A stretch of DNA of 24,494 nucleotides from a virus. The position numbers were made by a program, and so were the translations under genes. The DNA lies in the IMG/VR virus record IMGVR_UViG_3300012532_000064, positions 1 to 24,494 of that record; one strand, given 5' to 3'. Below, in pieces: positions 1 to 24,494 of this stretch (position 1 is its first letter; every line of letters starts with the position of its first letter). A model generated the notes under the pieces. It was not told the DNA's origin and did not search any database. It worked only from the letters and a program-made list of their open reading frames with translations.

Positions 1-1
1 G

Positions 2-1381
2 CTGGCGATCCCAACTCCGAACAAGGCGCCTACCGTGGCCGCTGGCGCCGCGGGCGCGCTGACGGGCACGTTCCGCGTGAAGGTGGCCTACGCGATCAAA
101 AACAGTCTGGGCGCCATCATCGCGGAGGGTGGCCGCAGCGTGGCGAGCCTGACCGTCACGGTCGCCGCGCAGCTGATCGCGCTGACGAACATCCCAAAAA
201 GCGCGGACCCGTCGATCAACTGCCGGCGCCTTTACCGGACGGCGACCGGCCCAGGGACCGAGTATTTTGAGTGGTTCGACATCGACGACAACACGACGAC
301 CTCCTACAGCGACGATGCGGCGGACGCCGATCTCTCGCTCTTCTCCGCGCAGACCGACCTGGGCGCGGCGCCCGCGCGCCTGGAGCTGTGCGCCGAGTGG
401 AAGGGCCGGTTGTGGGGGAAGAGCACGAGCGAACCGGACACTCTCCGATACTCGGCTGACGGGAAGCTCTACGCCTGGCCGGCGACGAATAGCCTGAAGG
501 TGCTCCCGGTCGGCAAGGATCGGCTCGGCATCACGGCGATCATTCCGCGCCGCGACGAGCTGGGGATCGCGCGCCGCGACATCATTTGGAAGGTGATCGG
601 CTCGGCCAACAACGACTTCCGCATGGTCAAGCTCGTCGAAGGGAAGGGCGCGATCGCTCCGGACAGCGTCATCGTCAGCCGCGACGTGGCGCGCTGGCTC
701 GCGGAGGACGGGGTCTACGAATGGGACGGCGAGGGAGTCCGCTGCATCTCGGACATGCAGGTTCATCCCTGGTTCTCGACCGACACCTATTTCAACCGGG
801 CGCTCTTCCCCAGCGCGTTCGCCCGTTACGATCCGTTGAAGCACTCCTACGACCTGTTTCTGGCGCCTGCCGGCGGGACGGACTTCACCCGCTGGGTCAG
901 CTTTGACATCTCGCGGAAGTGCTGGCTCGGGCCCCACAAGACGGACGCCTTCACGCCGACCGGGGCCGGGGTCATCTTCGACGCCAACGAAGTGCTCGTT
1001 CCGGTTGTGTGCGGCGGCGACAGCTACGTCTACAGCGTGACGCCGGGCACCTACCGCGACGGCGCCGCAACGGCCGTCGACTTCGACGTCACCGGCAAAT
1101 TCCACTCGGGGAACGCGCCGGACATCACCCATTATTGGGGCCAGATGGCGATTCTGACCAAGGTGGAAACCGGCGGGACGCTCTCGATCGTGCCGAAGGT
1201 CGGCCGGCTGAACGCCGTGGCCGGCGCGACTGTCAGCCATGATCTCACGACGGGCCGCGAACGGCTGCGTCGGCTGGGCGTCGGGCCACTCTGCCAAATC
1301 CGGTTCCAGAACGCTGAAGCCAACCGGTCCTGCGAAATCTTCGGCTACGAAATGCCGATGCACGAGATTGGTCGACGCTGA
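2..1381 (+). CDS. Phage tail hub/nozzle-type structural protein, 5' truncated
   Basis: The frame is open to the window edge from base 2, giving 459 residues with no convincing start. A GTG at 35 is in frame but has no ribosome-binding site and the coding frame clearly continues upstream, so the N-terminus is missing. The protein is beta-rich, with recurring Trp/Tyr-Asp-Gly turns. It contains a segment of the type W-K-G-R-L-W-G followed by D-T-L-R-Y-S and A-W-P-A-T-N, a pattern I associate with tail tubular/hub proteins of short-tailed phages (T7 gp12- or P22 gp10-like). That assignment is by motif pattern only. A YxWDG motif and a propeller-like body follow. Its stop overlaps the ATG of the HNH gene (TGATG at 1379-1383). 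The position just before fibre and spike genes fits a tail-tip role. Confidence 0.75.
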   Translation: MAIPTPNKAPTVAAGAAGALTGTFRVKVAYAIKNSLGAIIAEGGRSVASLTVTVAAQLIALTNIPKSADPSINCRRLYRTATGPGTEYFEWFDIDDNTTTSYSDDAADADLSLFSAQTDLGAAPARLELCAEWKGRLWGKSTSEPDTLRYSADGKLYAWPATNSLKVLPVGKDRLGITAIIPRRDELGIARRDIIWKVIGSANNDFRMVKLVEGKGAIAPDSVIVSRDVARWLAEDGVYEWDGEGVRCISDMQVHPWFSTDTYFNRALFPSAFARYDPLKHSYDLFLAPAGGTDFTRWVSFDISRKCWLGPHKTDAFTPTGAGVIFDANEVLVPVVCGGDSYVYSVTPGTYRDGAATAVDFDVTGKFHSGNAPDITHYWGQMAILTKVETGGTLSIVPKVGRLNAVAGATVSHDLTTGRERLRRLGVGPLCQIRFQNAEANRSCEIFGYEMPMHEIGRR

Positions 1382-1815
1382 TGCCTCACGCCGACCCAGC
1401 GGCTCGGCGGATCTACATGCGCGCGTATTACGCGAAGCATGGCCGAAAGCCACAAGCGCGAGATCGAGACAGGGTGAATGCTTCCCGCCGGCGATGGCGA
1501 CAGCGGCCGGAAGTAAAAATGAAGGCGCGTGCGGCCGCGGCTGCTTTCCGTGCCAGCCGTCCGCATTATTTCGCAGAATTTGAGGGGCGCCGAAGAGCCC
1601 GTATTCGTGGCACACAAGTTGAGCGGATCGACTACGCACTGGTTCTGGAACGAGCGGCTGGTCAATGCGGCATCTGCCGTGAGCCGTTGGCGCTCCCCAT
1701 CGAGATCGATCATGTTGTCCCGCTCGCTAGGGGAGGGACGCACACCTACGACAATCTCCAGGCTGCACACGCTGGCTGCAACCGGCGCAAGTGCGCCAAA
1801 GTCGGGCGGCGATGA
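1381..1815 (+). CDS. HNH endonuclease, free-standing
   Basis: The 144-residue protein has a basic N-terminal half (about residues 10-80, rich in Arg, Lys and Ala) likely to bind DNA, and a C-terminal HNH domain. Visible elements are a CxxC pair at C96/C99, the D110-H111 catalytic pair, N125, and C133-N134-x-x-K137-C138. The cysteines form a four-Cys zinc site, as known for this beta-beta-alpha-metal family, which nicks or cuts DNA. It starts at ATG 1381, overlapping the upstream stop by one base, and its own TGA overlaps the next ATG (ATGA at 1812-1815). It sits between two structural genes, is locally less GC-rich than they are, and looks like an inserted selfish or homing-type gene. A role in packaging is less likely because no terminase is adjacent. 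Confidence 0.9.
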   Translation: MPHADPAARRIYMRAYYAKHGRKPQARDRDRVNASRRRWRQRPEVKMKARAAAAAFRASRPHYFAEFEGRRRARIRGTQVERIDYALVLERAAGQCGICREPLALPIEIDHVVPLARGGTHTYDNLQAAHAGCNRRKCAKVGRR

Positions 1816-2999
1816 CCCTTCCGTATCGGCCGAATCCGCTTGAATTCCCGCTCACGGCCCAGCAGGTCGATGGCCTCGACCGCACGATCGACGACATCTA
1901 CGATGAGCTCCGCCGGCTGACGTCCGGCACCCACAAGATCCTCAGCACGACGCATGACGATACGATCGTCGAAACGCCCGTAGATGGCGACCTAATCTAC
2001 TACTCCGGAAGCTGGCGCCGGCTCGGTATCGGCAGCAACGGCAGCTTCCTCCAAGTCGTCACCGGAGCGCCGGCCTGGGGCGTCAACGGCGCGCTACTCG
2101 AAGACCTGAACGCGACTAAGATCACGTCCGGGACACTGGATCCTGCGCGCCTGGCGGCCTCCGGAGTGACCGCTGGCACCTACGGGGACGCCACGCACGT
2201 TGCCCAGGTCACCGTCGACGCGAAAGGCCGCGTGACGGCCGCCGTCGACGTCGCCATCTCGATCCCGCCGGCCACGCACAGCTTTCTGTCGACGACGCAT
2301 CCGGATACCGATCCGGCCTCTCCGACGCTCGGGGACATCGTCGTCGCGCAGAACTCCGGAGCGCTCGACGTCGGGAAGTATTTCATCGACGGCCAGCCCT
2401 TCGACTACCTGCCGAACGCAAACGACCCGGGCGCGGAAGCCTTCTGGCTGGACGGGCTCCCGGCGGTCGGACTCATCTCCAGCGGTTCGGTGAAGTGGGC
2501 GCGCAAGGCGAACGGGACGCCCGGCTACGTGCTCACGGCCGGGGCTACCGGCCCGGACTGGCAGCCAGCGGCCAGCAGCGCGGGGGACTACGCTTTCGTC
2601 TATCGCGCGTCAGACGTCAGCGTGACGAACCTCGTGCAGACGCAAATCCCGCTTGAGACCGTCGCGTCCGATGCGGCTGGGTTCTGGTCTGGAGGCTCAC
2701 CGACCCGGCTGACGGTGCCGGCTGGGAAGGCTGGGAAATACATCATCGTCGCGCAGGCGAGCTCGGAAGTGCCACTGAGCGGCACGGTCTACGTGTCGAT
2801 CAAGAAAAACGACACAATCGTCGCGGAACATTCACAGGCGACCAATGCCCAGCGCGGCCCGGCGCAGTGCAATTTCTTGGCGGACTTGGCGGCTGGCGAT
2901 TACCTCGAACTCTCGGTCCTGTTCGACTCCAGCACGGCTTCGCGGCTGATCAAGGGCGGTCAGACGAGCACGTTCCTTCAACTCCTGCGGGTGGCGTAA
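1812..2999 (+). CDS. Tail fibre protein with C1q-like C-terminal domain
   Basis: I start the gene at ATG 1812, which overlaps the HNH stop, giving 395 residues; an in-frame GTG at 1791 lies deeper in the HNH gene and is less likely. Residues 1-40 contain a short helix (about 15-36) suited to trimerisation. The middle is Gly/Thr/Ala-rich with fibre-type segments, including GTYGDATHV followed by VDAKGRVTA near residues 122-145, a pattern common in phage fibres, and two 'SNG/NGT...APAW/GPDW' turns. Residues about 259-395 look like a C1q/TNF jelly roll: beta strands, a 'GKYIIVAQ' strand, 'SIKKN', and an 'LAAGDYLELSV' strand before a short C-terminus. Such domains often cap trimeric fibres and bind receptors. 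It is directly followed by the spike gene. The fibre role is well supported; the target receptor is unknown. Confidence 0.85.
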   Translation: MTLPYRPNPLEFPLTAQQVDGLDRTIDDIYDELRRLTSGTHKILSTTHDDTIVETPVDGDLIYYSGSWRRLGIGSNGSFLQVVTGAPAWGVNGALLEDLNATKITSGTLDPARLAASGVTAGTYGDATHVAQVTVDAKGRVTAAVDVAISIPPATHSFLSTTHPDTDPASPTLGDIVVAQNSGALDVGKYFIDGQPFDYLPNANDPGAEAFWLDGLPAVGLISSGSVKWARKANGTPGYVLTAGATGPDWQPAASSAGDYAFVYRASDVSVTNLVQTQIPLETVASDAAGFWSGGSPTRLTVPAGKAGKYIIVAQASSEVPLSGTVYVSIKKNDTIVAEHSQATNAQRGPAQCNFLADLAAGDYLELSVLFDSSTASRLIKGGQTSTFLQLLRVA

Positions 3000-5516
3000 A
3001 TGGCAGTCAAGATTGCGCGGGCGGACGGGTTGTTCTCGGCCGCGGCGACGTGGGGCGTGTGCAGCGCCGTGGCGAGCGCCCTCCTGGACTCGGAAGCGAA
3101 TAATACGGTCCTGACGACCGCCTACGTTGAGAGCGTGGCGTTCACGCCTGGTGCCGTCACGATTGACGGAATCGCCGTGAAGGTGGCCTTGCGGCCAGGG
3201 GCGACCGGGACGATCAGCGTCCGTCTCGCCCAGGCCGGCGCCACTGTGGCCGGAACCGAAGTCACCATCAATGTCTCCGATCTGGAATCGCGCGCGGGGG
3301 AACAGGGCTGGTATCTGTTCAAGTTCGCGGGCGTCCTGCTCGTGGCGGCGACGGCCTACACGGTCAGCGCAAAAACGTCGAACGCTACGCAGGTCAACCT
3401 GTATCGGGACGCGACCGCCGGCAACTGGAGCCGGATGGTCCGCACGACGACGACTGGCGCCCCCGCCGCCGCAGATTCGTTGCACGTCCTTGGCGAATGG
3501 ACGGCCGCGGCCACGAAGACGGACCGCACGGTGACGATGGATTCGACGGCCGCCACGGACTACGGGGACGGCGTCGTAGCGAACCCAGCCGGGTTCACGA
3601 TCGGCAAGGGTGGCATTCTCACCTGGGGCACGACGGCCGCGACGAACTATATCCTCCGAGTCTCGACCCGTCTGACGATCTACCGCGGCGGGACGATGAA
3701 CATGGGGACGACGGGGACGCCGCTACCGCGAGACGGCAGCGCCCAGCTCGAATTCGACAGCGCTGCGGCAGACGGTGACTTCGGGCTCGTGGTTTACGGG
3801 ACGTTGAATTGCCAGGGGCAATCGCGCACGGTCGGGAAGAACGTCGTTCGCTGCAAGCTCAATGCTGACCTCGCGGCCGCCGGGGTGACATTCAACGTCG
3901 ACACCGACACCGGCTGGCTGAACACCGACGACGTCGCCGTCGCCTCGACGACGCAGACCGCCGCTCAGGCAGAGACGAAAGCGCTCAATGCCAACGCCGG
4001 GGCGGCCAGCATGACGACCGCCGTTGGGGTGGCGAACGCACACAGCGGCACGGCACCCACCCAGGCGGAGTTGATTCTCCTGACTCGCAACGCGCGGATC
4101 CAGTCGGTCAGCACGACGTTCATGGCCTACGTGTATTTCGGCGGGGCCTCGATCGTCGATTGCGATTGGACGGCCTTCCGTTACATGGGGGCCGCGACGG
4201 CAGGGAAGCGCGGCGTCGAAGTGGACACCGACGCGAACGGTTCGCTGGCGCTCTCCTTCTGCTCGATCCGAGATTTCGACCAGCACGGCATCTACGTCGC
4301 CTCCGCGACGGCCGACAACTTCTCAATCGACAACCTGACCGGCTACAAGGTCGGGAACCAGTCGGCTGGACAGGCGGCGATCAACATCTTCGGGACCACC
4401 GGATCCAACTGGACCCTGACCAACATCGACATCATCAGCGCCAATACGTTCGGCGGTGCCGGCATCTCCCTTGGCTCCTACAACGGCACGCTGACCAACA
4501 TCCGCTGCAATAGTGGGGGAGGCGACGGGATCACCCTCGCCGCGGCGGTCAGCGTGAGCCGGCAGAGCATTCATAAGACCTGGAGCGGCTTCGACCTCCA
4601 CAGCAATACCCAAGCTGGGCTCACCGTGGAAGCGCTCGACTTCGGAAAGCTCTCAAACGTCAACATCTGGAGGAACCTTGCCTCGTCGACGGGTGGGCTC
4701 CAGATCGGAACCTGCGTCGGCCGGCTGATCATCGAAACCGGCGCGTTCTTCGGTAACGCCGTCAGCAATGTCATATTCGCGGCCGGCGGCGGGCCCAAGG
4801 GGCTTCTGCTCCGCAGCGTGACACTCAGCGGCGACAGCTCGTTTGCAACGACCAACGGGGTCAATTTCAACGTCGCGGGTAATCCGGCGATCTCGCTGGA
4901 GTGCGACAACTGCACGTTCGGCACGGTCAGCGGGATCAAGACCGCGCACACGAACGACATCAACTGCAATTCGTCCAACAACGCGCGTTACGCGGAGGTC
5001 ACGCTACGGAATACGAAGCTCGATTCTGCGACCGAGATCGCCAACCAGGCGCACCTGGCCGGCCGCAGCTACATCCGCTACCAGCGCGTCGACCAGGCGA
5101 CCAACACCCACAAGGCCGTCTATCCGGTCCTAGGGACCGTCAGCTACGAAACCGGCACGTTCAAGACGGCAGCTCCTTCGGAAGCGATGGCCCCGGCCGG
5201 AGACGGCGCGGGCGAGAAGCTCGAAAGCGGCCCGAAACGGGTCGCCGTTCTCAGCGGTGCAACCGTGTCGATCGCGGTGTATGTCCGAAAATCCGCGGCT
5301 TACACCGGCTCTGCACCGCGGCTCATGCAGCGGGCAAACCCGGCGATCGGCGTCCTGGTCGACACCGTCATCGACACGCTCTCGGTGGCGGCAGACACCT
5401 GGGAGCAGCTCTCCGGAGTCACCGCGGCGGCCTCGGAAAACGGCGTGGCGGAATTCTACGCGGACTGTGACGGTGCCATCGGGACGGTCTACGTCGACGA
5501 CTGGACGGCAGCGTAA
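3000..5516 (+). CDS. Tailspike-like protein: G8-like region, beta-helix and carbohydrate-binding-like end
   Basis: The 838-residue protein starts at an ATG immediately after the fibre stop (TAAATG), so translation is probably coupled. Residues 1-160 are a beta-sandwich-like head. Residues about 175-320 resemble the G8/CEMIP-type region: regularly spaced glycines, a 'GTTGTPLP' turn, a 'VVYGTLNCQGQ' strand and a closing 'TDDVAVAST...QAETK' segment. Residues about 340-700 show short strands with Asn, Gly, Thr and Ser ladders typical of right-handed parallel beta-helices, as in pectate-lyase-fold tailspikes. From about 717 to the end is a separate beta-sandwich with a 'TWEQLSG' strand and a terminal 'VYVDDW', a signature seen in carbohydrate-binding modules. 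It probably binds or degrades surface polysaccharide. No catalytic residues can be assigned by eye. Confidence 0.85.
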   Translation: MAVKIARADGLFSAAATWGVCSAVASALLDSEANNTVLTTAYVESVAFTPGAVTIDGIAVKVALRPGATGTISVRLAQAGATVAGTEVTINVSDLESRAGEQGWYLFKFAGVLLVAATAYTVSAKTSNATQVNLYRDATAGNWSRMVRTTTTGAPAAADSLHVLGEWTAAATKTDRTVTMDSTAATDYGDGVVANPAGFTIGKGGILTWGTTAATNYILRVSTRLTIYRGGTMNMGTTGTPLPRDGSAQLEFDSAAADGDFGLVVYGTLNCQGQSRTVGKNVVRCKLNADLAAAGVTFNVDTDTGWLNTDDVAVASTTQTAAQAETKALNANAGAASMTTAVGVANAHSGTAPTQAELILLTRNARIQSVSTTFMAYVYFGGASIVDCDWTAFRYMGAATAGKRGVEVDTDANGSLALSFCSIRDFDQHGIYVASATADNFSIDNLTGYKVGNQSAGQAAINIFGTTGSNWTLTNIDIISANTFGGAGISLGSYNGTLTNIRCNSGGGDGITLAAAVSVSRQSIHKTWSGFDLHSNTQAGLTVEALDFGKLSNVNIWRNLASSTGGLQIGTCVGRLIIETGAFFGNAVSNVIFAAGGGPKGLLLRSVTLSGDSSFATTNGVNFNVAGNPAISLECDNCTFGTVSGIKTAHTNDINCNSSNNARYAEVTLRNTKLDSATEIANQAHLAGRSYIRYQRVDQATNTHKAVYPVLGTVSYETGTFKTAAPSEAMAPAGDGAGEKLESGPKRVAVLSGATVSIAVYVRKSAAYTGSAPRLMQRANPAIGVLVDTVIDTLSVAADTWEQLSGVTAAASENGVAEFYADCDGAIGTVYVDDWTAA

Positions 5517-5603
5517 CTTTACAGCCCGGCTCATTTGTGGCACTCTTTTCCGCGAACTCCCCCAGCAGTAAGCGGCTTTTCAGGACAACAGAAGGGTCGA
5601 CCT
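5517..5603. other. 87-bp intergenic gap
   Basis: This is the only sizeable non-coding gap in the arm. It has no convincing Rho-independent terminator (only a 4-bp CCGC/GCGG pairing with a long loop) and no good sigma70 promoter: a TTTACA at 5518-5523 lacks a matching -10 box. Its 3' end holds the ribosome-binding site of the next gene. Confidence 0.6.
5591..5596 (+). promoter_or_regulatory. Ribosome-binding site fixing the start at 5604
   Basis: GAAGGG lies 7 bases before ATG 5604. It favours that ATG over a GTG at 5535 in the same frame, which lacks such a site and would add 23 residues of non-conserved look. Confidence 0.7.
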
Positions 5604-6389
5604 ATGGCTGGAACCGGAGTAGTCGCCCCCTACCGGGGCCCAATCGACCCCCACACCGGGCTCCCTGTTGACCGTATCGGAGACGCGAAACGCGCGAAAG
5701 CTGCCGCTGAATCCGAGGGGCGCACGAAGACCGAAAACTTCAACGCCCAGCAGGCGGCCTTGGCGGCTCAGCGGGCCGGCCTCAACGCCAACACGTCATA
5801 CCGAGACGCCTACACCGGCACGTCCTACGACTACTCAACCGGCGGCGGGGGGGTAGCCGGCGCGCGGCGGAGCGGCTCTGGTGCCGGAACGGGCGACGGA
5901 ACGGGCGACGTCGACGTCAACGGGCTGTGGCAGAGGAGCAACGTTATCCAGGCGCCCCCGCCTCCACCGCTCCCCCCGCGCGTGAATCCGATTTCAATGG
6001 CCGACACCACGGCCTCGCAAAACGCTGAATTTTCGAAGGCAAAGGACAGGGTTGGCCGCGTTGGACGAGCCTCCATGAACGCGCTCTCCGGCGAGATGCG
6101 CGCCCGCGGAATCAGCGGCTCCGGGATCGAAGCCTCCGAGATCGGCAACCGCGTCGACCAGGCGTCTGGCGCGCTCGGGGACGTCGCCAACAACCAAGCG
6201 GTCGACGCCCTAAAGCGCCGTTACCAGATCGACGACACCAACTACCAGGGCGACATCAGCCAGCGCGGCCAGGACATCGGCGCCGGGGAATCGAACGCCA
6301 GCCGGGCGATGCAGGCCCTTCAGCTCCGCGCGAACCTTCATCAGAGCCTCATGTCGCTGGCGTCACGGAACGGCGGACGGGTCTACTGA
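5604..6389 (+). CDS. Putative virion-associated structural protein
   Basis: The 261-residue product has no signal peptide or membrane segment. Its N-terminal part (1-60) is polar and Ala-rich helical. Residues about 75-115 are Gly/Ser/Asp-rich and lead into a polyproline run at about 117-126. Residues about 140-205 form an amphipathic helical block containing 'GRASMNALSGEM' and 'RGISGSGIEA', then a Gln/Arg-rich helical tail ending in a tyrosine. I have seen this helix-glycine-helix pattern in small phage proteins encoded after tail genes, sometimes annotated as internal virion or tail-completion proteins; this is recall, not a search. Location between spike and ejection-type genes supports a virion role. 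Function is otherwise unknown. Confidence 0.75.
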   Translation: MAGTGVVAPYRGPIDPHTGLPVDRIGDAKRAKAAAESEGRTKTENFNAQQAALAAQRAGLNANTSYRDAYTGTSYDYSTGGGGVAGARRSGSGAGTGDGTGDVDVNGLWQRSNVIQAPPPPPLPPRVNPISMADTTASQNAEFSKAKDRVGRVGRASMNALSGEMRARGISGSGIEASEIGNRVDQASGALGDVANNQAVDALKRRYQIDDTNYQGDISQRGQDIGAGESNASRAMQALQLRANLHQSLMSLASRNGGRVY

Positions 6390-6390
6390 G

Positions 6391-6462
6391 ATGGGCCAGT
6401 TCGTCGACTACCTCATTGCGATGCTCGCGGCCGGGGATGCTCACCGGGCGGGCGGCGGATAA
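6391..6462 (+). CDS. 23-codon micro-ORF, candidate
   Basis: An ATG one base after the upstream TGA opens a 23-codon frame that ends in TAA directly against the ATG of the next gene. It fills a gap of 73 bases almost exactly. The product has a short hydrophobic amphipathic start (MGQFVDYLIAMLAAG) and a Gly-rich end. A GGACGGG at 6374-6380 lies about 10 bases upstream. Either it is a real small protein or it serves to keep ribosomes coupled between two genes. No family is recognised. Confidence 0.4.
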   Translation: MGQFVDYLIAMLAAGDAHRAGGG

Positions 6463-6915
6463 ATGCCGACCAGGGGCACCGGCGTCGTCGTCCGCCAAAC
6501 AGGCGGGACGCGGGTTTTTCCAGGCGGCCGCATTGGTCCAGCGAACACAACACCCGTCCAGCAGGCGCCGCAACGTCAGGTTCAGCAGGCGCCGCAACGC
6601 TCGGCGCAGCCATACAGTCCGCCGGTCGAGGATTCTTACACGACGCTGCAGCGGCAGCGCGCGCAGCAGCCGCAGCAGTCCTTCCAGCAGCCGCAGCAGG
6701 CCCCGGCTTGGCAGCCACCCCAACCGCCGCCGATGCCGTCTGCTCCCGGCCCGTCGCAACCGCCTCTCCCTGTTCCCCAGGCGGCCGCGCCCCAGGCACA
6801 GGATCCCGGCGAGGGCTGGGATTCGATCGGGTCCAGCGCCGTCGCGCCAGGGCTCGGCCAGCGGCGTCTCCCAATGTCCATGTCCGCGCTTGAGGGCGCC
6901 ACGAGGCTCTACTGA
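6463..6915 (+). CDS. Pro/Gln-rich low-complexity phage protein
   Basis: The 150-residue protein is dominated by Gln, Pro and Ala between about residues 30 and 115. It includes two exact copies of VQQAPQR and later QQPQQ and PPQPPPMP runs. Only the first 25 residues (Gly/Arg/Val-rich) and the last 35 (with WDSIGSSAVAPGLGQRRLPMS, a likely ordered tail) have normal composition. It starts right after the TAA of the micro-ORF and its TGA overlaps the following ATG. Third codon positions are strongly G/C, supporting real coding. The disordered middle suggests a flexible linker or assembly-type virion component. No enzyme motif is visible and no family is recognised. Confidence 0.7.
   Translation: MPTRGTGVVVRQTGGTRVFPGGRIGPANTTPVQQAPQRQVQQAPQRSAQPYSPPVEDSYTTLQRQRAQQPQQSFQQPQQAPAWQPPQPPPMPSAPGPSQPPLPVPQAAAPQAQDPGEGWDSIGSSAVAPGLGQRRLPMSMSALEGATRLY
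6559..6599 (+). repeat. Tandem direct repeat, 24-bp period
   Basis: The 17-base unit cagcaggcgccgcaacg occurs at 6559-6575 and 6583-6599. The 24-base period equals eight codons and encodes the repeated VQQAPQR motif, so it is an in-frame internal duplication of the Pro/Gln-rich gene. Confidence 0.85.
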
Positions 6916-7106
6916 TGCAGACCGAAACCGTGGACGAGACGTATCGGCGCCCCGGGTTCAGTATTCCCGGCTACGCATCCGCGGCCGCGCGCAAGGGGCA
7001 CGAGCTGGGACTCTGCCGGCGGTGGACGCCGGCGGAAGCGAAGGAACAGGGCCGTCGCGCGGCGGCGATCCGCTGGTCCCGCGAACGTGCGCGCAAGGGG
7101 GCGTAG
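6915..7106 (+). CDS. Small basic phage protein of unknown function
   Basis: The 63-residue product starts at an ATG overlapping the previous stop by one base, with GAGG at 6903-6906 eight bases ahead. The C-terminal half (about 25-63) is a strongly basic helical stretch, TPAEAKEQGRRAAAIRWSRE, rich in Arg, Lys and Ala; the N-terminal half has Pro-Gly turns and one cysteine. It could bind nucleic acid or an acidic virion protein, but no family is recognised. Tight packing in the operon, its own ribosome-binding site and G/C-rich third codon positions argue that it is real. Confidence 0.7.
   Translation: MQTETVDETYRRPGFSIPGYASAAARKGHELGLCRRWTPAEAKEQGRRAAAIRWSRERARKGA
7095..7100 (+). promoter_or_regulatory. 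Ribosome-binding site for the gene at 7107
   Basis: AAGGGG ends six bases before ATG 7107, within the last codons of the small basic gene. It is one of the best Shine-Dalgarno matches in the arm and suggests high translation of the following protein. Confidence 0.65.
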
Positions 7107-8132
7107 ATGCTGAACCAAGCACAGATCGCCGGCCAGCAGATGCGACGGCGGAACGACCAGAACAGGCTGGACGAACTCGAACTCACCCAGGGGCAGTTCG
7201 ACGACGAGCGCGATCGCCTCAATGCGTCCCCGCATCCGGGCGCGCCTTACAGCGGTTACAGCAACGAGCACGAATACCGCGAAGGGCTGAACCGCCAGGG
7301 TGAGATCGCCGGGTTGCGGTCGAAGATGTCGGGCAAGGGAGGGCTGAACGTGTCGCACACCTACGCGGGAACGGACTTCGCGCGCCGGCCGTCGCTCTCG
7401 GCGCTCGGTGGCGCGGCGATGGGCCGGACGCCGGTGGATCCGAACGAGGTTTCCGACAACTCCAACTACTACCTGCGGCAGAACGCGATCCGCGCCGGCC
7501 AGCTCCAGGTCAACGCCATGGAGGACGCGCAGAACGATCGCGCGCTCTCGGACAACCCCTACCGTGTGGAACAGCGCGGCAACATCGCGCGCGACGAGCT
7601 CCGCCGCAACGCGCACGCGGCCGGGGAAGCATCCGCCGACCAGGCCAGCGGGCAGTATTTCGGGACCGCTGGGATTCGAGACGACCAGCGCTTCGAGCGC
7701 CGCAGCGAAGCGCGCGACGTCGGCTACTCCGACCCGAAGGTCGCCGCCGCCGAGATCGAGGCGCGCGGCCGCGTCACGGCTTCCGCGAACGACAAACAGC
7801 GGGAGCGTTCGGCGGCCCTGAAGGCGTATGCGGACCTGATCAAGAGCCAGGCGCTCCAGCCGAAAACCATCACCCGGAATGTTCCTGGTTCCGGTGTGCT
7901 CGGCACTGACTGGATGGGCAAGACGGAAGAAGTCAACAACCCCGCCTGGGACTCCATCCAGCAGGGGATCGACGACTCCCGGAAGGTCATCGGCGTCGAC
8001 GACCAGCAGGGCGGTGGCGGCGGCGGTCAGACGCTCAGCCAAGACGACCTGCAGGCGTTCGCAGAGGAAAACGGCATGACGGTCGACGAGGTTGCCCAGC
8101 TCGCCAAGCAATACGGGTATGCCATTCGGTAG
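7107..8132 (+). CDS. Putative virion/ejection-type protein, hydrophilic and helical
   Basis: The 341-residue protein starts at ATG 7107, directly after the TAG of the upstream gene. It is highly charged and rich in Gln, Asn, Arg, Asp and Ala, with long helical stretches (about 1-60, 120-180 and 195-255), no cysteine-rich site and no membrane segment. A polyglycine linker at about 302-307 separates a small C-terminal domain (about 309-341; LQAFAEENGMTVDEVAQLA), a two-helix unit resembling the short terminal domains of phage internal proteins. Its stop lies 14 bases inside the giant downstream gene. Composition and position between tail genes and a giant multidomain protein suggest a protein packaged in the virion or ejected with DNA. 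This is inferred from context, not from a recognised family. Confidence 0.75.
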   Translation: MLNQAQIAGQQMRRRNDQNRLDELELTQGQFDDERDRLNASPHPGAPYSGYSNEHEYREGLNRQGEIAGLRSKMSGKGGLNVSHTYAGTDFARRPSLSALGGAAMGRTPVDPNEVSDNSNYYLRQNAIRAGQLQVNAMEDAQNDRALSDNPYRVEQRGNIARDELRRNAHAAGEASADQASGQYFGTAGIRDDQRFERRSEARDVGYSDPKVAAAEIEARGRVTASANDKQRERSAALKAYADLIKSQALQPKTITRNVPGSGVLGTDWMGKTEEVNNPAWDSIQQGIDDSRKVIGVDDQQGGGGGGQTLSQDDLQAFAEENGMTVDEVAQLAKQYGYAIR

Positions 8133-11100
8133 CGACCCGTTCGGCGCGTTCCTTCGGAAGCGGCGGCCCCAGCCGGACGCCGAAGCTGCGCCCGATCCCA
8201 CCGTAGCTGACCAGTTCTCCGGGACGGAGTTGTCGCTCGACCCCTTCGACGCCTTCATGACGAAGCGCCGCCGGCTGGGTCCGGGGCTCTCCCGCACCGC
8301 GCGCGGCATCGGGGACGCGCTCGAATGGACCTTTGAGAAGCCCGTCAAGCCGATCGCTGATGCCGCGGACGCATTCTCCGACTGGACACAGAATCAAGGC
8401 GGCCGCGTGCTGCCCTACGTCGGCGCCTTCGCTGAGGGCGTTGCACAGCAGGCCACCCCCGCAAACCTTGCGATGACCGCGTTCGGCATGAAGGCCCCTG
8501 GGAAGATCCCGGGCCTGATGACGCCTGGCGGCCCCGCCGCGCTCAACCGCGGTGCGGAGTCGATGCTGGCGCTGCGCGATATGGCCCGTATGGGCGAGAC
8601 CGCCGCCGGCAGCTTCCAGGCCGGCATGGGCGGCGCCGCGGCGCAGGACGCCTACGACCAGGGGGACTACACCGGCGCCGCGCTCGCAGGCGGCATGACG
8701 GCGCTCGGCGCGTTCGCCGCGGCCTCCGGTGCGCCTGGCCTCCGGAAGCGTTTCTACGACATCAAGGGCGACATCCTGTCGGCGGCGCGCGACCGCTCGA
8801 TCGCCGGAACGGTGACTCCGCCGGACATCGAATACGGCGTCCGCGGTCAGCGGCAGCTTCCAGGCGAGACCATCGACGGCGATGTCATTCCGCAGGAGCC
8901 CGTCCAGGGCCAGCTCGCTGGCGATCGCCAGCGCTTGCTCCCAGCCGGTAGCCAGCGCTTACTCCCAGGAGAGGCGCCGCCGTATCGGATGCCGCCGAAG
9001 CCGGCGACTCCGCTCCCGGCCCGCACGCCGATGTCGCCAGCTAGGCTGACTGATGCGGAGCTGCGGGATTCGTTCCTGGAAGCCACGCTCAACGGCGAGG
9101 ACGTCGCCCCGTTTGAAACGGAGCTCGCCCGCCGCGGCCCGACATCTCTTCCGGATTCATCGGTGTCCGGCGGCGCGGTGGAGAACCGTCCGCTGGGAAC
9201 GTCGGTCGCCCCGGCCGGCGAGGGCGTTCCTCGCCCGTCATCGGCGCCGATGGCTCCGGAAGGGATCGACCTGGCGCGCGAGCGTCAGAAGCTCCAGGCG
9301 CAGGGGTTCCCGTCTACGCTGATCGATCGCATCATTGGCGATCTGGTCGCCGGGAAGAGCGAGGCTCCAGCTCCCGGCACGCCCGGCACCGTCACCCCGC
9401 CGGACCCACGGATCGCGCAGCTTCCGCCGCTTGATGAACGCATGGCCGCTGCGCGCGGCCGCGAGAGTGCCCAGGTGTCACCTGACGACGCTTCGTTGCC
9501 ACCAGACAACCCGGGCGCGTTGGAACAGCTCCTTGGCATGGTCGAAGAGGGCCAGAACGTGACGCCGGAGACGGCCTTCGCTGACATGACCGCGGACCCG
9601 AACGTTGACCCGCTGACGAACATTCTGAACCGCCGCGGCTGGGAGCGCCAAGGCGGCGCGAAGCCAGGACGTCTCATCGGGCGCGCCGACGCCGACAACT
9701 TCAAGGGGATCAATGACAAGCTCGGACACGCCGAAGGCGACCGTGCCCTACAGGTCATCAGCGATACTCTGCGCCGATTCGCCCGTCGGAACGGTGATCG
9801 TGTCGCTCGCCTGGGTGGCGATGAATTCGGACTCGACATGGAAGCCCCGACCGGCGATCACGTCGCGCTGCGGGACCAGATCGAAACCGAAGTGGCGTCC
9901 GCCCTGCGGAAAGCCGGGTTCCCCGAAGACGTTGGCCTATCGCTCGGGTTCGGCGCCGACGAGGCGACGGCGGACGCGGCCGCGATCGCGCGAAAGGCGG
10001 AACGTGGACTTTCGCGGCCGCGGAGCGTAGAATCCGCCGGTGACGTTGGTCCAGGGGAACAACCGCTCGGCGGTGCTCTTGAACGTCGTGCGGCTCCGGC
10101 GGGAGGGTTGGACCTACCAGCAGGCGATGGAGATCGCCCTGTCGGAAGCCAGGCTGTCGCGCGTCCCCGGAAAAGCGCGATCGAACGACACGCCGATCGA
10201 CTCTTCCCCGAATACCTCGACGATGCCCGCCGAAATGGATTCACTGGATCCGACGAGGAACTCCGCGCCGCCTTCGACGAACGAGTCCGAGCCTCCCGCG
10301 AGCTAATCGACGACCTCGACTCGACGGCGGCCGAGAACAGCCCCACTGCACTCCTGCAGGAGCTTCGTCGGATCGGAGGGATCAAGCCCTTCGAGAAGGA
10401 GATGGGCACCGGCCGCCAGCTCCGCGGCGGCATCGAAGCCATCGTCGAAAGTTTCGCGTCTCCCACTGGTCGCGGTCAGCGCGGCCAGTCCAGTGTGTTC
10501 CGGTCCGATGGGCTCGATTGGGACGATGCGGTCGACCAGCTTCGCTCGACCGGCAAATTCCCGCACATCCAGGACATCAAAGACCTTGTAAACGAACTCG
10601 ACACCATCTCCAGGACGGACAAGGACGTCGGCTGGGAGTCGCCGCAGCTACGCGACGTGCTGGAGGGCGGGCTCGGCGTCAAGCCTGGCTCGCGCTGGTG
10701 GCTGAACCAGGGCGATGACTCCTTCAACCCAGCGGAACTCGAAGGCGACATCCTCGACAGCGGCGAGCGCCAGCCGCGGTTGCCTGGCGACGTCGGCGCG
10801 GTGCGCTCGACCGAGACCGCGACTCCGCAATTCGACGCGCCGTTCAGCCTGACCAGGGAAGCATCGAAGGCGCCTGATGCGACCGCAGTCGGGCTGGACG
10901 ATGTTGACAAAGCCCTGACCATTCGGAGCCTGGACGACATCTCGACCCGCCACGAAGTCCGCTCGCCGGAGAAGGCCAGCGCGATCGCGGAGTCGATGAA
11001 GCGGGTTGGCTGGAAGGGCCGCCCGGTGCTCGTGCTCCAGGACGGCGACAAGCTGACCGCCTGGACCGCCACGCATCGGCTCGAAGGGGCGAAACAGGCC

Positions 11101-12345
11101 GGGCTCTCGATCGACGACGTCCCCATGAAGATCGTCGACGCCCAGGCGCTCCGGGACGCCGGTTACTCGGTCGACGACCTGACCGCGCGCGGGAAGAAGA
11201 CGCGGATCAAAGCGCTGCGCGCCGCCGGCCAGGAGGACGCTGCCCAGCTACTCGAACAGGAACAGGCCGCCGCCGCGGTGGGGCGCCCATCGACTCCTGA
11301 CGTCCCTGAATTCGTGAACGTCCCGCCGAACGTCCGCGACTTCCTCGTCCGCCAGCTCGGTTACACCGACAAGGATCTGGCCGGGATGCCGGCGTCTGAA
11401 ATCTACCGCATCGGGCGGGAGAAGATTCGCAACCCGGAAGCACCCTCGAAATACGAGCGGCCGCGCGAGGTTGTGACAAAGGCAACCGGCCAGAGCTACG
11501 ACCTGGCGAAGATGTCGGACATTGCGCCGGACCTGGAGGAATTCCTCGGTCTCGAAGTGCCGAAGCGGCAGGCGCAGATCGACCAGCGCATGACGCGCGC
11601 GAAGGACACCCGCGGCGTCCCCCTGGAGCGCGTCAACCGGGTCGAAGGGGAAACCCAGGTGCCGGCGTCCCGCCCGCAGCGCGACGTGATCCCGCCGGTC
11701 ACGCGGCGCGGGATCGCGGCGTCGACGGACGCCCTCAACGCCCAGGCGACTGACCAGGCCGCCGATGCTAGGGCGGCGGCCGCGCGCGCCGGGGAGACGA
11801 CGTCGCAGCGGCAGTCGCGCGTGGCGACGATGCAGAGCGAACAGCGCCGCGCCGTCAAGGAGATGCAGTCTGCCTTCAACCGGGGCGACTACAAGACCTA
11901 CGCGCAGAAGATCGGGGAGGCGGCGGAGCGGTTCTGGAAACGGTCAGTCAAGATGGGCACGCGCGTCGAGGACGACGAGCCGGGCCAGTTCATCGGCGCT
12001 GGCCTCGGCATGGCTCAGGCCATCCTCAAAGACCCGAAGAAATACGCGGAGCTGGCGGGAGAGATGCTCCGCAACCCCGCGGTTCGCGCGGCGATCGGTG
12101 CTGTGGCAGGCGGCGCCATCGACGACGACGAGCGTATGCGCGGGGCTCTTTACGGAGCCCTGCTCGCCGCTGGCACGCCGACCGGGTTGAAGGCACTCGT
12201 CCGCGGATTCAAGAACGTCCGTGACGGAAAGCCGCTCCTGTCTGGCGCGCCAGACAGGAGCGGCTTTCCGTCACGGACGTTCTTGAATCCGCGGACGAGT
12301 GCCTTCAACCCGGTCGGCGTGCCAGCGGCGAGCAGGGCTCCGTAA
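8119..12345 (+). CDS. Giant polyvalent-type phage protein with GGDEF and ParB-like domains, cut at the palindrome axis
   Basis: I start at ATG 8119 (TTG 8092 is in frame but less likely), overlapping the previous gene by 14 bases. Codons 1-1376 are authentic; codon 1377 spans the axis and the last 31 residues are antisense read-through, so the true C-terminus is missing. Residues 6-16 and 41-51 repeat a DPFxAFxxKRR motif. Residues 100-207 are Ala/Gly-rich and mildly hydrophobic. After a Pro-rich linker comes a GGDEF domain (about 495-635): DPLTNILNRRG at 497-507, DADNFKGIND at 524-533, GHAEGD at 536-541, RNGD at 557-560 and GGDEF at 566-570. Helical segments follow (685-760). A ParB-like domain spans about 935-1015, with THR at 985-987. 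The C-terminal part is helical and basic. Active GGDEF proteins make cyclic di-GMP; here this is a prediction. Phage polyvalent proteins are injected multi-effector chains; membership is inferred. Confidence 0.8.
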   Translation: MPFGSDPFGAFLRKRRPQPDAEAAPDPTVADQFSGTELSLDPFDAFMTKRRRLGPGLSRTARGIGDALEWTFEKPVKPIADAADAFSDWTQNQGGRVLPYVGAFAEGVAQQATPANLAMTAFGMKAPGKIPGLMTPGGPAALNRGAESMLALRDMARMGETAAGSFQAGMGGAAAQDAYDQGDYTGAALAGGMTALGAFAAASGAPGLRKRFYDIKGDILSAARDRSIAGTVTPPDIEYGVRGQRQLPGETIDGDVIPQEPVQGQLAGDRQRLLPAGSQRLLPGEAPPYRMPPKPATPLPARTPMSPARLTDAELRDSFLEATLNGEDVAPFETELARRGPTSLPDSSVSGGAVENRPLGTSVAPAGEGVPRPSSAPMAPEGIDLARERQKLQAQGFPSTLIDRIIGDLVAGKSEAPAPGTPGTVTPPDPRIAQLPPLDERMAAARGRESAQVSPDDASLPPDNPGALEQLLGMVEEGQNVTPETAFADMTADPNVDPLTNILNRRGWERQGGAKPGRLIGRADADNFKGINDKLGHAEGDRALQVISDTLRRFARRNGDRVARLGGDEFGLDMEAPTGDHVALRDQIETEVASALRKAGFPEDVGLSLGFGADEATADAAAIARKAERGLSRPRSVESAGDVGPGEQPLGGALERRAAPAGGLDLPAGDGDRPVGSQAVARPRKSAIERHADRLFPEYLDDARRNGFTGSDEELRAAFDERVRASRELIDDLDSTAAENSPTALLQELRRIGGIKPFEKEMGTGRQLRGGIEAIVESFASPTGRGQRGQSSVFRSDGLDWDDAVDQLRSTGKFPHIQDIKDLVNELDTISRTDKDVGWESPQLRDVLEGGLGVKPGSRWWLNQGDDSFNPAELEGDILDSGERQPRLPGDVGAVRSTETATPQFDAPFSLTREASKAPDATAVGLDDVDKALTIRSLDDISTRHEVRSPEKASAIAESMKRVGWKGRPVLVLQDGDKLTAWTATHRLEGAKQAGLSIDDVPMKIVDAQALRDAGYSVDDLTARGKKTRIKALRAAGQEDAAQLLEQEQAAAAVGRPSTPDVPEFVNVPPNVRDFLVRQLGYTDKDLAGMPASEIYRIGREKIRNPEAPSKYERPREVVTKATGQSYDLAKMSDIAPDLEEFLGLEVPKRQAQIDQRMTRAKDTRGVPLERVNRVEGETQVPASRPQRDVIPPVTRRGIAASTDALNAQATDQAADARAAAARAGETTSQRQSRVATMQSEQRRAVKEMQSAFNRGDYKTYAQKIGEAAERFWKRSVKMGTRVEDDEPGQFIGAGLGMAQAILKDPKKYAELAGEMLRNPAVRAAIGAVAGGAIDDDERMRGALYGALLAAGTPTGLKALVRGFKNVRDGKPLLSGAPDRSGFPSRTFLNPRTSAFNPVGVPAASRAP
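8916..8933. repeat. 18-bp perfect palindrome inside the giant gene
   Basis: The sequence cgctggcgatcgccagcg is self-complementary without a loop. It overlaps a short coding duplication (two QRLLP copies at 8926-8970 or so), so it may simply reflect codon use. No binding protein is indicated. Confidence 0.5.
10040..10306 (+). CDS. Candidate overlapping gene nested in the giant gene (+1 frame)
   Basis: This 88-codon frame begins at GTG 10040 and ends at TAA 10304-10306. Hand count over the first 40 codons gives G or C at the third position in 38 of 40, against 17 of 40 in the enclosing frame, although that frame is GC3-rich elsewhere. The first 48 residues look like a folded basic helical protein, with VVRLRREGWTYQQAMEIAL; 'QQAMEIALSEAR' resembles the 'QAIAIALSEAR' tail of small phage/bacterial proteins I recall (DUF6496-like). 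The rest is Ser/Pro/Thr-rich. GGAG at 10022-10025 is 14 bases upstream, too far for a strong site; a TTG at 10046 is another start. The enclosing frame here is a low-complexity Gly/Pro/Ala linker, so dual coding is feasible. Alternatively, it is a relic of an ancestral separate gene. Confidence 0.45.
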   Translation: MTLVQGNNRSAVLLNVVRLRREGWTYQQAMEIALSEARLSRVPGKARSNDTPIDSSPNTSTMPAEMDSLDPTRNSAPPSTNESEPPAS

Positions 12346-15300
12346 AGAGCCCCGCGCATACGCTCGTCGTCGTCGATGGCGCCGCCTGCCACAGCACCGA
12401 TCGCCGCGCGAACCGCGGGGTTGCGGAGCATCTCTCCCGCCAGCTCCGCGTATTTCTTCGGGTCTTTGAGGATGGCCTGAGCCATGCCGAGGCCAGCGCC
12501 GATGAACTGGCCCGGCTCGTCGTCCTCGACGCGCGTGCCCATCTTGACTGACCGTTTCCAGAACCGCTCCGCCGCCTCCCCGATCTTCTGCGCGTAGGTC
12601 TTGTAGTCGCCCCGGTTGAAGGCAGACTGCATCTCCTTGACGGCGCGGCGCTGTTCGCTCTGCATCGTCGCCACGCGCGACTGCCGCTGCGACGTCGTCT
12701 CCCCGGCGCGCGCGGCCGCCGCCCTAGCATCGGCGGCCTGGTCAGTCGCCTGGGCGTTGAGGGCGTCCGTCGACGCCGCGATCCCGCGCCGCGTGACCGG
12801 CGGGATCACGTCGCGCTGCGGGCGGGACGCCGGCACCTGGGTTTCCCCTTCGACCCGGTTGACGCGCTCCAGGGGGACGCCGCGGGTGTCCTTCGCGCGC
12901 GTCATGCGCTGGTCGATCTGCGCCTGCCGCTTCGGCACTTCGAGACCGAGGAATTCCTCCAGGTCCGGCGCAATGTCCGACATCTTCGCCAGGTCGTAGC
13001 TCTGGCCGGTTGCCTTTGTCACAACCTCGCGCGGCCGCTCGTATTTCGAGGGTGCTTCCGGGTTGCGAATCTTCTCCCGCCCGATGCGGTAGATTTCAGA
13101 CGCCGGCATCCCGGCCAGATCCTTGTCGGTGTAACCGAGCTGGCGGACGAGGAAGTCGCGGACGTTCGGCGGGACGTTCACGAATTCAGGGACGTCAGGA
13201 GTCGATGGGCGCCCCACCGCGGCGGCGGCCTGTTCCTGTTCGAGTAGCTGGGCAGCGTCCTCCTGGCCGGCGGCGCGCAGCGCTTTGATCCGCGTCTTCT
13301 TCCCGCGCGCGGTCAGGTCGTCGACCGAGTAACCGGCGTCCCGGAGCGCCTGGGCGTCGACGATCTTCATGGGGACGTCGTCGATCGAGAGCCCGGCCTG
13401 TTTCGCCCCTTCGAGCCGATGCGTGGCGGTCCAGGCGGTCAGCTTGTCGCCGTCCTGGAGCACGAGCACCGGGCGGCCCTTCCAGCCAACCCGCTTCATC
13501 GACTCCGCGATCGCGCTGGCCTTCTCCGGCGAGCGGACTTCGTGGCGGGTCGAGATGTCGTCCAGGCTCCGAATGGTCAGGGCTTTGTCAACATCGTCCA
13601 GCCCGACTGCGGTCGCATCAGGCGCCTTCGATGCTTCCCTGGTCAGGCTGAACGGCGCGTCGAATTGCGGAGTCGCGGTCTCGGTCGAGCGCACCGCGCC
13701 GACGTCGCCAGGCAACCGCGGCTGGCGCTCGCCGCTGTCGAGGATGTCGCCTTCGAGTTCCGCTGGGTTGAAGGAGTCATCGCCCTGGTTCAGCCACCAG
13801 CGCGAGCCAGGCTTGACGCCGAGCCCGCCCTCCAGCACGTCGCGTAGCTGCGGCGACTCCCAGCCGACGTCCTTGTCCGTCCTGGAGATGGTGTCGAGTT
13901 CGTTTACAAGGTCTTTGATGTCCTGGATGTGCGGGAATTTGCCGGTCGAGCGAAGCTGGTCGACCGCATCGTCCCAATCGAGCCCATCGGACCGGAACAC
14001 ACTGGACTGGCCGCGCTGACCGCGACCAGTGGGAGACGCGAAACTTTCGACGATGGCTTCGATGCCGCCGCGGAGCTGGCGGCCGGTGCCCATCTCCTTC
14101 TCGAAGGGCTTGATCCCTCCGATCCGACGAAGCTCCTGCAGGAGTGCAGTGGGGCTGTTCTCGGCCGCCGTCGAGTCGAGGTCGTCGATTAGCTCGCGGG
14201 AGGCTCGGACTCGTTCGTCGAAGGCGGCGCGGAGTTCCTCGTCGGATCCAGTGAATCCATTTCGGCGGGCATCGTCGAGGTATTCGGGGAAGAGTCGATC
14301 GGCGTGTCGTTCGATCGCGCTTTTCCGGGGACGCGCGACAGCCTGGCTTCCGACAGGGCGATCTCCATCGCCTGCTGGTAGGTCCAACCCTCCCGCCGGA
14401 GCCGCACGACGTTCAAGAGCACCGCCGAGCGGTTGTTCCCCTGGACCAACGTCACCGGCGGATTCTACGCTCCGCGGCCGCGAAAGTCCACGTTCCGCCT
14501 TTCGCGCGATCGCGGCCGCGTCCGCCGTCGCCTCGTCGGCGCCGAACCCGAGCGATAGGCCAACGTCTTCGGGGAACCCGGCTTTCCGCAGGGCGGACGC
14601 CACTTCGGTTTCGATCTGGTCCCGCAGCGCGACGTGATCGCCGGTCGGGGCTTCCATGTCGAGTCCGAATTCATCGCCACCCAGGCGAGCGACACGATCA
14701 CCGTTCCGACGGGCGAATCGGCGCAGAGTATCGCTGATGACCTGTAGGGCACGGTCGCCTTCGGCGTGTCCGAGCTTGTCATTGATCCCCTTGAAGTTGT
14801 CGGCGTCGGCGCGCCCGATGAGACGTCCTGGCTTCGCGCCGCCTTGGCGCTCCCAGCCGCGGCGGTTCAGAATGTTCGTCAGCGGGTCAACGTTCGGGTC
14901 CGCGGTCATGTCAGCGAAGGCCGTCTCCGGCGTCACGTTCTGGCCCTCTTCGACCATGCCAAGGAGCTGTTCCAACGCGCCCGGGTTGTCTGGTGGCAAC
15001 GAAGCGTCGTCAGGTGACACCTGGGCACTCTCGCGGCCGCGCGCAGCGGCCATGCGTTCATCAAGCGGCGGAAGCTGCGCGATCCGTGGGTCCGGCGGGG
15101 TGACGGTGCCGGGCGTGCCGGGAGCTGGAGCCTCGCTCTTCCCGGCGACCAGATCGCCAATGATGCGATCGATCAGCGTAGACGGGAACCCCTGCGCCTG
15201 GAGCTTCTGACGCTCGCGCGCCAGGTCGATCCCTTCCGGAGCCATCGGCGCCGATGACGGGCGAGGAACGCCCTCGCCGGCCGGGGCGACCGACGTTCCC

Positions 15301-17388: not shown

Positions 17389-17580
17389 CTACGCCCCCTT
17401 GCGCGCACGTTCGCGGGACCAGCGGATCGCCGCCGCGCGACGGCCCTGTTCCTTCGCTTCCGCCGGCGTCCACCGCCGGCAGAGTCCCAGCTCGTGCCCC
17501 TTGCGCGCGGCCGCGGATGCGTAGCCGGGAATACTGAACCCGGGGCGCCGATACGTCTCGTCCACGGTTTCGGTCTGCAT
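17389..17580 (-). CDS. Small basic protein, mirror copy
   Basis: Identical right-arm copy of the 63-residue basic protein at 6915-7106, starting at 17580. The start overlaps the stop of the Pro/Gln-rich gene by one base. Function unknown. Confidence 0.65.
   Translation of the reverse strand: MQTETVDETYRRPGFSIPGYASAAARKGHELGLCRRWTPAEAKEQGRRAAAIRWSRERARKGA
17395..17400 (-). promoter_or_regulatory. Ribosome-binding site, mirror copy
   Basis: AAGGGG on the - strand, six bases before the ATG at 17388; counterpart of 7095-7100. Confidence 0.6.
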
Positions 17581-18032: not shown

Positions 18033-18104
18033 TTATCCGCCGCCCGCCCGGTGAGCATCCCCGGCCGCGAGCATCGCAATGAGGTAGTCGACGAACTGGC
18101 CCAT
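18033..18104 (-). CDS. 23-codon micro-ORF, mirror copy
   Basis: Identical right-arm copy of the candidate micro-ORF at 6391-6462. The same caution applies: tight placement is its main support. Confidence 0.35.
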   Translation of the reverse strand: MGQFVDYLIAMLAAGDAHRAGGG

Positions 18105-18105
18105 C

Positions 18106-18891: not shown

Positions 18892-18978
18892 AGGTCGACC
18901 CTTCTGTTGTCCTGAAAAGCCGCTTACTGCTGGGGGAGTTCGCGGAAAAGAGTGCCACAAATGAGCCGGGCTGTAAAG
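18892..18978. other. 87-bp intergenic gap, mirror copy
   Basis: Right-arm counterpart of 5517-5603; no convincing promoter or terminator seen. Confidence 0.55.
18899..18904 (-). promoter_or_regulatory. Ribosome-binding site, mirror copy
   Basis: GAAGGG on the - strand, seven bases before ATG 18891; counterpart of 5591-5596. Confidence 0.65.
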
Positions 18979-24493: not shown

Positions 24494-24494
24494 C

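Follow-up and report, generated by a model that had tools for sequence, protein, structure and literature searches.

A GGDEF domain inside a giant, possibly ejected protein of an uncultivated podovirus-like phage

We have analyzed the whole of the IMG/VR virus record IMGVR_UViG_3300012532_000064, a stretch of 24,494 bases that is referred to here as the window. The sequence reads the same on both strands (0 mismatches in the half that was compared); two arms of 12,247 bases, joined without spacer, make up the window from 1 to 24494 as a perfect inverted repeat. Since it is a palindrome, unique sequence is confined to 1-12247. The palindrome most likely arose as an artefact of assembly or amplification. 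Genes are listed twice in such a record, and counts made on records of this kind double. The GGDEF domain that is the subject of this report is likewise printed twice, at 9601-10023 on the + strand and as a mirror copy at 14472-14894 on the - strand. The genes of the unique half are as follows.

1..12247 (no strand): unique half; 12248-24494 is its exact reverse complement, with ORFs in mirrored pairs
2..1381, + strand: virion protein, 5' end cut (phrog_511 "internal virion protein", E 6e-17)
1381..1815, + strand: HNH endonuclease (PF01844, E 4.3e-11)
1791..2999, + strand: tail-fibre-like protein, 402 aa (phrog_7389 tail fiber, E 5e-4; weak BclA_C)
3000..5516, + strand: 838-aa ORF, placed by position (PHROG matches at E 0.07 only)
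5535..6389, + strand: 284-aa ORF of the virion module (39% over 274 aligned to L181:185-991, E 1e-40)
6463..6915, + strand: 150-aa ORF, by position only in the place of a 244-aa gene in L181
7107..8132, + strand: 341-aa gene adjoining the giant, virion module (48% over 60 aa to L181:1694-2710, same position)
8092..12246, + strand: giant protein (1385 real codons from TTG 8092, or 1376 from ATG 8119)

The relative that serves for comparison is IMGVR_UViG_3300036859_000361 (G013, 32,436 bp; locus L181), which was reached via the ParB-like part of the giant protein. Four neighbouring genes were compared with it (2-1381, 5535-6389, 6463-6915 and 7107-8132); three match (39-48%), in the same order as in the window, and the 150-aa ORF has no significant match to its 244-aa counterpart. 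The window giant is the last gene in this colinear run, and synteny places it at the end of a virion module. The virion-type location proposed in the first-pass annotation is supported by this synteny, as the G013 contig also holds portal and capsid (major head) genes. L011 was tried as a synteny relative and rejected, since two neighbour comparisons gave no significant alignment.

The product of 2-1381 is 43% identical over 465 positions to L182:10057-11652 and 24% identical to an annotated "phage stabilization protein" (MW202601). The ORFs that flank the place of the HNH gene lie 4 bases apart in G013, so the HNH gene is absent there; it is probably a homing insertion between virion genes. 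The best PHROG match of 1791-2999 is to a family of unknown function (E 4.5e-8). The 838-aa ORF has no Pfam match, and an 880-aa ORF occupies its place in the relative (by position only); from its position it is a probable tail or appendage protein. Searches with exact peptide patterns yielded one weak locus for 2-1381, no confirmed relative for 7107-8132 or for 10270-10800, and one locus for P0002, a stand-alone GGDEF protein.

The giant ORF as printed runs from 8092 to 12345 on the + strand, and its final 32 codons, from 12247 on, belong to the mirrored strand. At the palindrome centre the contig doubles back, which leaves the chain without its C-terminus. The chain is nevertheless longer than the 1370 residues first claimed for it, whichever start is used. 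GC by codon position is high-low-high until 12246 (about 0.72/0.49-0.57/0.81 in the flanks of the GGDEF domain); in the last 32 mirrored codons it is 0.56/0.72/0.78, with the first position lowest. The features of the chain are listed here.

8113..8166, + strand: N-terminal short repeat, copy 1, TGMPFGSDPFGAFLRKRR
8218..8271, + strand: N-terminal short repeat, copy 2, SGTELSLDPFDAFMTKRR
9601..10011, + strand: GGDEF (diguanylate cyclase) domain, residues 504-640 (PF00990, model, fold match)
10927..11280, + strand: ParB/sulfiredoxin-fold domain, about residues 946-1063 (match to the L181 giant and model)
12097..12174, + strand: glycine-zipper-like hairpin, GAVAGGAIDDDERMRGALYGALLAAG (motif)

The two N-terminal repeats form an ungapped self-match that was equalled in 0 of 100 shuffles. 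Repeats within the first 90 residues were found at p<=0.05 in 15 of 30 proteins that are not all independent (28 GGDEF giants, the window and L011; 100 shuffles each), and the repeated peptides differ from phage to phage. In two control sets, repeats at this level occurred in 27 of the 290 windows taken from chain interiors (20 shuffles each) and at the N-terminus of 4 of 58 other ORFs (100 shuffles). Besides the window, repeat-bearing N-termini are those of L020, L023, L035, L037, L039, L041, L042, L044, L047, L058, L060, L062, L067, L011:14998-15780 and L195:994-3813; the repeat was not found in L181 or L196. These short, phage-specific repeats are a possible packaging or docking motif.

The ParB-like domain lies inside a stretch that is 53% identical over 164 positions (E 3e-42) to the L181 giant, and this is the sole significant match between the two giants. 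A two-row model of 10837-11295 reached a modest mean pLDDT of 69.9. Its top solved matches are sulfiredoxin, ParB, KorB and Noc, at Z 7.5 and below, a level flagged by the structure-comparison tool as possibly common. The stretch also matches Rctr197k_173, at the sub-threshold ParB_N stretch of that protein (E 0.053). The ParB/sulfiredoxin-fold assignment is made because the superfamily is consistent among these matches and because of the ParB_N match in this related protein. The region just past the ParB-like core, at about 11090-11240, has a likeness to IcmE/DotG repeats (phmmer E 5.6e-5) in which no single stretch is significant (PF25296 E 0.012, below cut-off).

By eye, the glycine-zipper-like hairpin is similar to a part of L195:994-3813 that has a below-cut-off glycine-zipper match (PF05433 E 1.1e-4). 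A regular expression written on the window's motif matched only the window among 40 chains, and the hairpin is thus not a general feature of giants. A Pfam scan of the chain, which lacks its C-terminus, found no LPD or peptidase family; LPD and metallopeptidase domains are frequent in polyvalent proteins but not universal. Seven PHROG families match the giant, all of unknown function and all covering the GGDEF region; resemblance to T7 gp16 is limited to gene position in other loci. In the phage collection the N-terminal 502 aa have no match and the C-terminal 741 aa match one record; the latter have no match among plasmids. The result is a very long chain (at least 1376 codons) with unrelated domains, a GGDEF domain and a ParB/sulfiredoxin-fold domain, the latter from a modest two-row model.

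The intact-looking GGDEF domain reported in the first-pass annotation is confirmed by profile searches. The match is far above chance, since PF00990 (E 1.1e-16; 61.5 bits, cut-off 23.8; hmmscan of the whole ORF) and TIGR00254 (E 4e-15, 55.9 against 37.4; NCBIfam) both exceed their cut-offs. Frame 1 of 9601-10023 on the + strand is stop-free and reads DPLTNILNRRG, DADNFKGIND, GHAEGD, RNGD, RVARL and GGDEF; the motifs named earlier (DPLTNILNRRG, DADNFK, IND, GHxxGD and GGDEF) are all in this translation. The structure prediction and comparison with PleD-type domains suggested at that stage were carried out and gave a palm-like GGDEF fold. The AlphaFold2 model, from a 62-row alignment, has a mean pLDDT of 84.6. 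Among solved structures WspR lies closest (Z 19.1, rmsd 2.1, 142 aligned), ahead of further GGDEF proteins, with PleD 1w25 at Z 17.6 (rmsd 4.8, 156 aligned); Foldseek gave E 6e-11. The best matches among predicted viral proteins include Bacillus phage G Gp350, the phage SP-15 diguanylate cyclase and a Bordetella phage CN1 protein.

The following positions were located by aligning the window domain to 41 phage-type rows and 28 bacterial domains.

9688..9690, + strand: Asp at the PleD D327 position (metal; alignment)
9703-9705, + strand: K35, expected catalytic/binding position (alignment)
9712-9714, + strand: N38, expected catalytic/binding position (alignment)
9739-9741, + strand: D47, expected catalytic/binding position (alignment)
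9787..9798, + strand: RNGD at the I-site (RxxD) position (translation, alignment)
9814..9828, + strand: GGDEF signature (translation)
9994-9996, + strand: K132, expected catalytic/binding position (alignment)

Window residues D30, K35, N38, D47, D74 and K132 align with D327, K332, N335, D344, E370 and K442 of PleD, which we take to be the numbering of its metal, guanine and phosphate residues. The RxxD had been described as standing five residues ahead of the signature, and this holds: RNGD is followed by the spacer RVARL and then GGDEF. RNGD falls on the I-site columns, at which the 28 bacterial rows carry R in 23 cases and D in 22. The accompanying claim that all expected residues are present stands for the mapped metal, guanine, phosphate and I-site positions. 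It fails in that no GRN motif (the PleD R446 equivalent) is seen by eye after the domain and that two segments are short. From NRR to the first metal Asp the window has 17 residues (median 14 and range 13-30 in phage-type rows, 25 and 21-26 in bacterial domains), and from SxG to the phosphate-binding Lys again 17 (median 17 and range 17-41 in phage-type rows, 27 and 26-30 in bacterial domains). The two short segments and the lack of GRN by eye mean that activity could be lowered or abolished. GGDEF cyclases of this kind act as dimers; no receiver domain or dimer element was found in the window protein. The presence of the guanine-recognising N and D predicts GTP use and a c-di-GMP product. The window's domain has no close relative from which selection could be gauged.

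These departures give some weight to the reading that the domain has little or no catalytic activity and acts in the ejected protein as a sensor or sponge that binds GTP or c-di-GMP: degenerate GGDEF receptors exist, and RNGD could bind c-di-GMP without catalysis. However, every mapped metal, guanine and phosphate position is intact, and GGDEF receptors usually lose the GGDEF signature. We consider a non-catalytic module unlikely and treat the domain in what follows as a probable cyclase.

Similar combinations occur elsewhere. Viral contigs were scanned with a profile of the window domain, YuA gp44 and FP1, after selection by the patterns DPLT[GN][VI]LN and D[SN][LF]K[WG][IV]ND over 2.9 million contigs, so that the counts give no frequency. 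Among the 56 viral loci obtained, 39 have the GGDEF domain inside ORFs of 1000-3524 codons (counted stop to stop, at least 1000 codons), including the apparent near-duplicates L028/L029, L035/L036, L045/L046, L049/L051 and L050/L053. The GGDEF and giant combination is thus not an isolated case. The signature [SGA]G[DE]EF is present in 55 of 56 loci (it is absent from L033); in the 39 giants it is SGDEF 35 times and GGDEF four times, and one giant (L023) has an RxxD I-site. A search of eight whole giant-bearing records found one GGDEF in each.

Ten of these giants were scanned against Pfam, and GGDEF scored above cut-off in all ten. An additional LPD or enzyme domain was above cut-off in six: InPase and GNAT in L021, InPase in L023, LPD38, ART-PolyVal and RadC in L031, LPD38 in L058, and LPD22 in both L054 and L068. 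Matches below cut-off were seen in L039 (RadC), L059 (methyltransferase) and L066 (LPD39), and L042 had no additional match. A profile built from the two InPase stretches matches 11 of 40 giants, a count without a background rate, and does not match the window; a pyrophosphatase beside a cyclase would presumably clear PPi from the reaction.

The conservation of D329, K332, N335, D336 and GDEF among the 41 phage-type rows is partly forced by the scan patterns and by the regular expression used to extract the GDEF core. At unselected positions D344 is kept in 36 of 41 rows and K442 in 41 of 41; D327, loosely selected by the expression (D or N), is invariant in all 41. An identity and length filter left four pairs for dN/dS on the domain; the values are low for the three pairs of giants, 0.116 (L061/L068), 0.064 (L045/L050) and 0.179 (L047/L049), and 0.366 for the stand-alone pair L013/L038.

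The gene that follows the giant in L027, L061 and L068 belongs to a tail-fibre family, presumably the T7 gp17 type, and we take the place before such a gene to be that of T7 gp16. L054 and L068 have a tail protein (phrog_376) upstream; a head-closure protein lies beside the L059 giant and a structural protein after the L039 giant. As 20 of the 30 neighbouring proteins scanned have no PHROG match at E<=0.001, a virion context is documented for a minority of the other giants only. Three matches were rejected as phage genes. The match in E. coli "phage" 683R6 is an annotated DgcM amid host-type genes, and the two faecal "Bacteriophage sp." records that were inspected, L009 and L010 (MT837980.1, MT835498.1), carry bacterial-looking genes and appear to be bacterial DNA.

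The kin of the window differ from it at the giant's place. G013 has no PF00990 match at E<=10. A scan for further kin gave 11 loci, of which one (L191) is G013 again and another (L194) was left out of the GGDEF search; GGDEF was found in 0 of the nine remaining records at E<=1, several of these records being fragments. By gene order, the giant's place is taken in L187 by a protein of 939 aa, with a glycine-zipper match below cut-off, and in G018 by an ORF of 583 aa with no Pfam match; neither has an enzyme domain recognised by Pfam. Because kin share the virion genes or the ParB-like domain without GGDEF, the domain looks like exchangeable cargo of the giant, a suggestion drawn from synteny. 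Kin with the same virion genes and without GGDEF offer a natural comparison.

Two trees disagree on the placement of the window domain. Both unite the phage-type rows as one clade against bacteria (43 rows, support 0.999, in the first; 41 rows, 89/97, in the second). The first tree drew its 79 bacterial rows (80 loci) by exact peptides from the window's domain itself and puts the window among the bacterial rows, with support of 0.0 at its fork and 0.964 at the next fork out. The second, with 28 bacterial rows (30 loci from 4 genomes, chosen by family score, of which 28 yielded a domain) and 3 bacterial-type rows from viral contigs, puts it beside the phage-type rows, at a support that is not firm (97/68) and on an end branch of 1.9. 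The window motifs lie outside the pattern of the SGDEF subfamily (NFKGIND, GGDEF and RNGD versus SLKW[IV]ND and mostly SGDEF).

On balance we favour the view that the giant is an ejected polyvalent protein of a podovirus-like phage and carries a competent, most likely GTP-specific diguanylate cyclase. The domain, its predicted fold and residues, the gene position and the absence of the domain from kin with the same virion genes were observed directly, whereas packaging in the virion, injection, dimer formation, activity and target are inferred. The first-pass suggestions of catalysis, feedback inhibition, delivery with the DNA and effects on biofilm, motility or cyclic-nucleotide defence are plausible. 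The giant would be a large ejected virion protein of the "polyvalent" kind, in which cargo domains vary between related phages. Its copies would enter the host together with the DNA, perhaps helped at the membrane by the glycine-zipper segment. GGDEF domains of adjacent copies might then pair and convert host GTP to c-di-GMP within minutes. Synthesis would precede new gene expression, and the I-site could halt it near its threshold level. The rise in c-di-GMP might alter host outputs such as surface and motility, or disturb nucleotide-based defence. By calculation, about 600 product molecules correspond to 1 micromolar in a cell of 1 fL, and a few ejected copies could approach this concentration during infection through repeated turnover, with copy number and turnover assumed. 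If the protein is active and injected, such phages deliver a signal-making enzyme, and host c-di-GMP, with its effects on attachment, motility and possibly defence, would be reset at entry. The general form of this proposal, that uncultivated podovirus-like phages carry a c-di-GMP synthase in an exchangeable ejection protein and that the particle sets the second-messenger state before phage expression, is put forward only tentatively.

The product may instead target cyclic-nucleotide immunity by mimicking, flooding or triggering a CBASS- or Panoptes-like pathway, maybe as another dinucleotide, rather than c-di-GMP physiology. Interference with host nucleotide responses was proposed by Iyer et al. 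2017 (PMC5512222), and the Panoptes defence is described in PMC12657218 as sensing phage interference with such signals. The Asn and Asp that recognise guanine, however, predict GTP and c-di-GMP, and the scan of window proteins turned up nothing recognisable as defence or counter-defence; we regard an immune target as improbable, to about the same degree as a non-catalytic domain. Somewhat less probable again is a giant that, made late, would act through expression of its gene or serve as a structural part of the particle, without delivery to the next host. In YuA and FP1, GGDEF is encoded by a gene of its own, located upstream of the terminase amid non-structural genes. Unlike the Yuavirus gene, the window domain is in the last ORF of the virion module, and the polyvalent-type domain partners in six of the ten other giants scanned also argue for delivery. 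An assembly chimera of a bacterial GGDEF gene and phage DNA, brought to mind by a palindromic record, is mostly refuted and very improbable, given the single open frame with the same codon-position pattern before, within and after the domain, the match of upstream genes and downstream ParB-like domain to the same relative, and the GGDEF domains of other phage giants.

The delivered cyclase that we favour resembles several known systems. With WspR and PleD it shares the fold, the mapped catalytic residues and the position of the I-site. In those proteins receiver domains control dimerisation, whereas the window protein has none that could be found. Phage GGDEF genes are already annotated in Yuavirus-type and Bordetella phages (FP1, CN1), which counts against the first-pass view of the locus as the best candidate for an undescribed system. 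Annotated matches of the giant-type domain in phage records (best 50 of 56) are Pseudomonas and Bordetella phage genes. YuA gp44 and FP1 are 44% and 40% identical to the window domain, but are stand-alone proteins of 156 aa rather than a domain of a giant; the YuA gene is annotated with a "putative role in host cell conversion". Lysogens of Bordetella phage LK3 form more biofilm, reported in PMC8471281 as a correlation only. The SGDEF giants (loci L020-L068) share with the window a GGDEF domain in long ORFs, shortened segments (by the median) and the mapped catalytic positions; nearly all of them read SLKW[IV]ND, and 38 of 39 are without the RxxD that the window has as RNGD. Where they align significantly with the window giant, it is mainly around the GGDEF region.

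The closest precedent is in Iyer et al. 2017 (PMC5512222), where GGDEF is named among the domains of injected phage "polyvalent proteins", interference with host nucleotide signals is proposed, and GGDEF and RelA/SpoT in such proteins are called "not very widespread". Beyond that proposal, no virion-delivered diguanylate cyclase was found in the open-licence literature among the matches listed. Iyer et al. give as their example WP_004096050.1, from an Acetonema longum prophage, in which SNF2, adenine methyltransferase, zincin and ART domains occur, whereas the window combines GGDEF with a ParB/sulfiredoxin-fold domain. As in those proteins, GGDEF is one domain of a very large, supposedly injected phage protein with other domains in the chain, and the functional proposal is similar. 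A GGDEF domain in a phage polyvalent protein is thus already in print, and the window is a new example of such a protein, not a new system.
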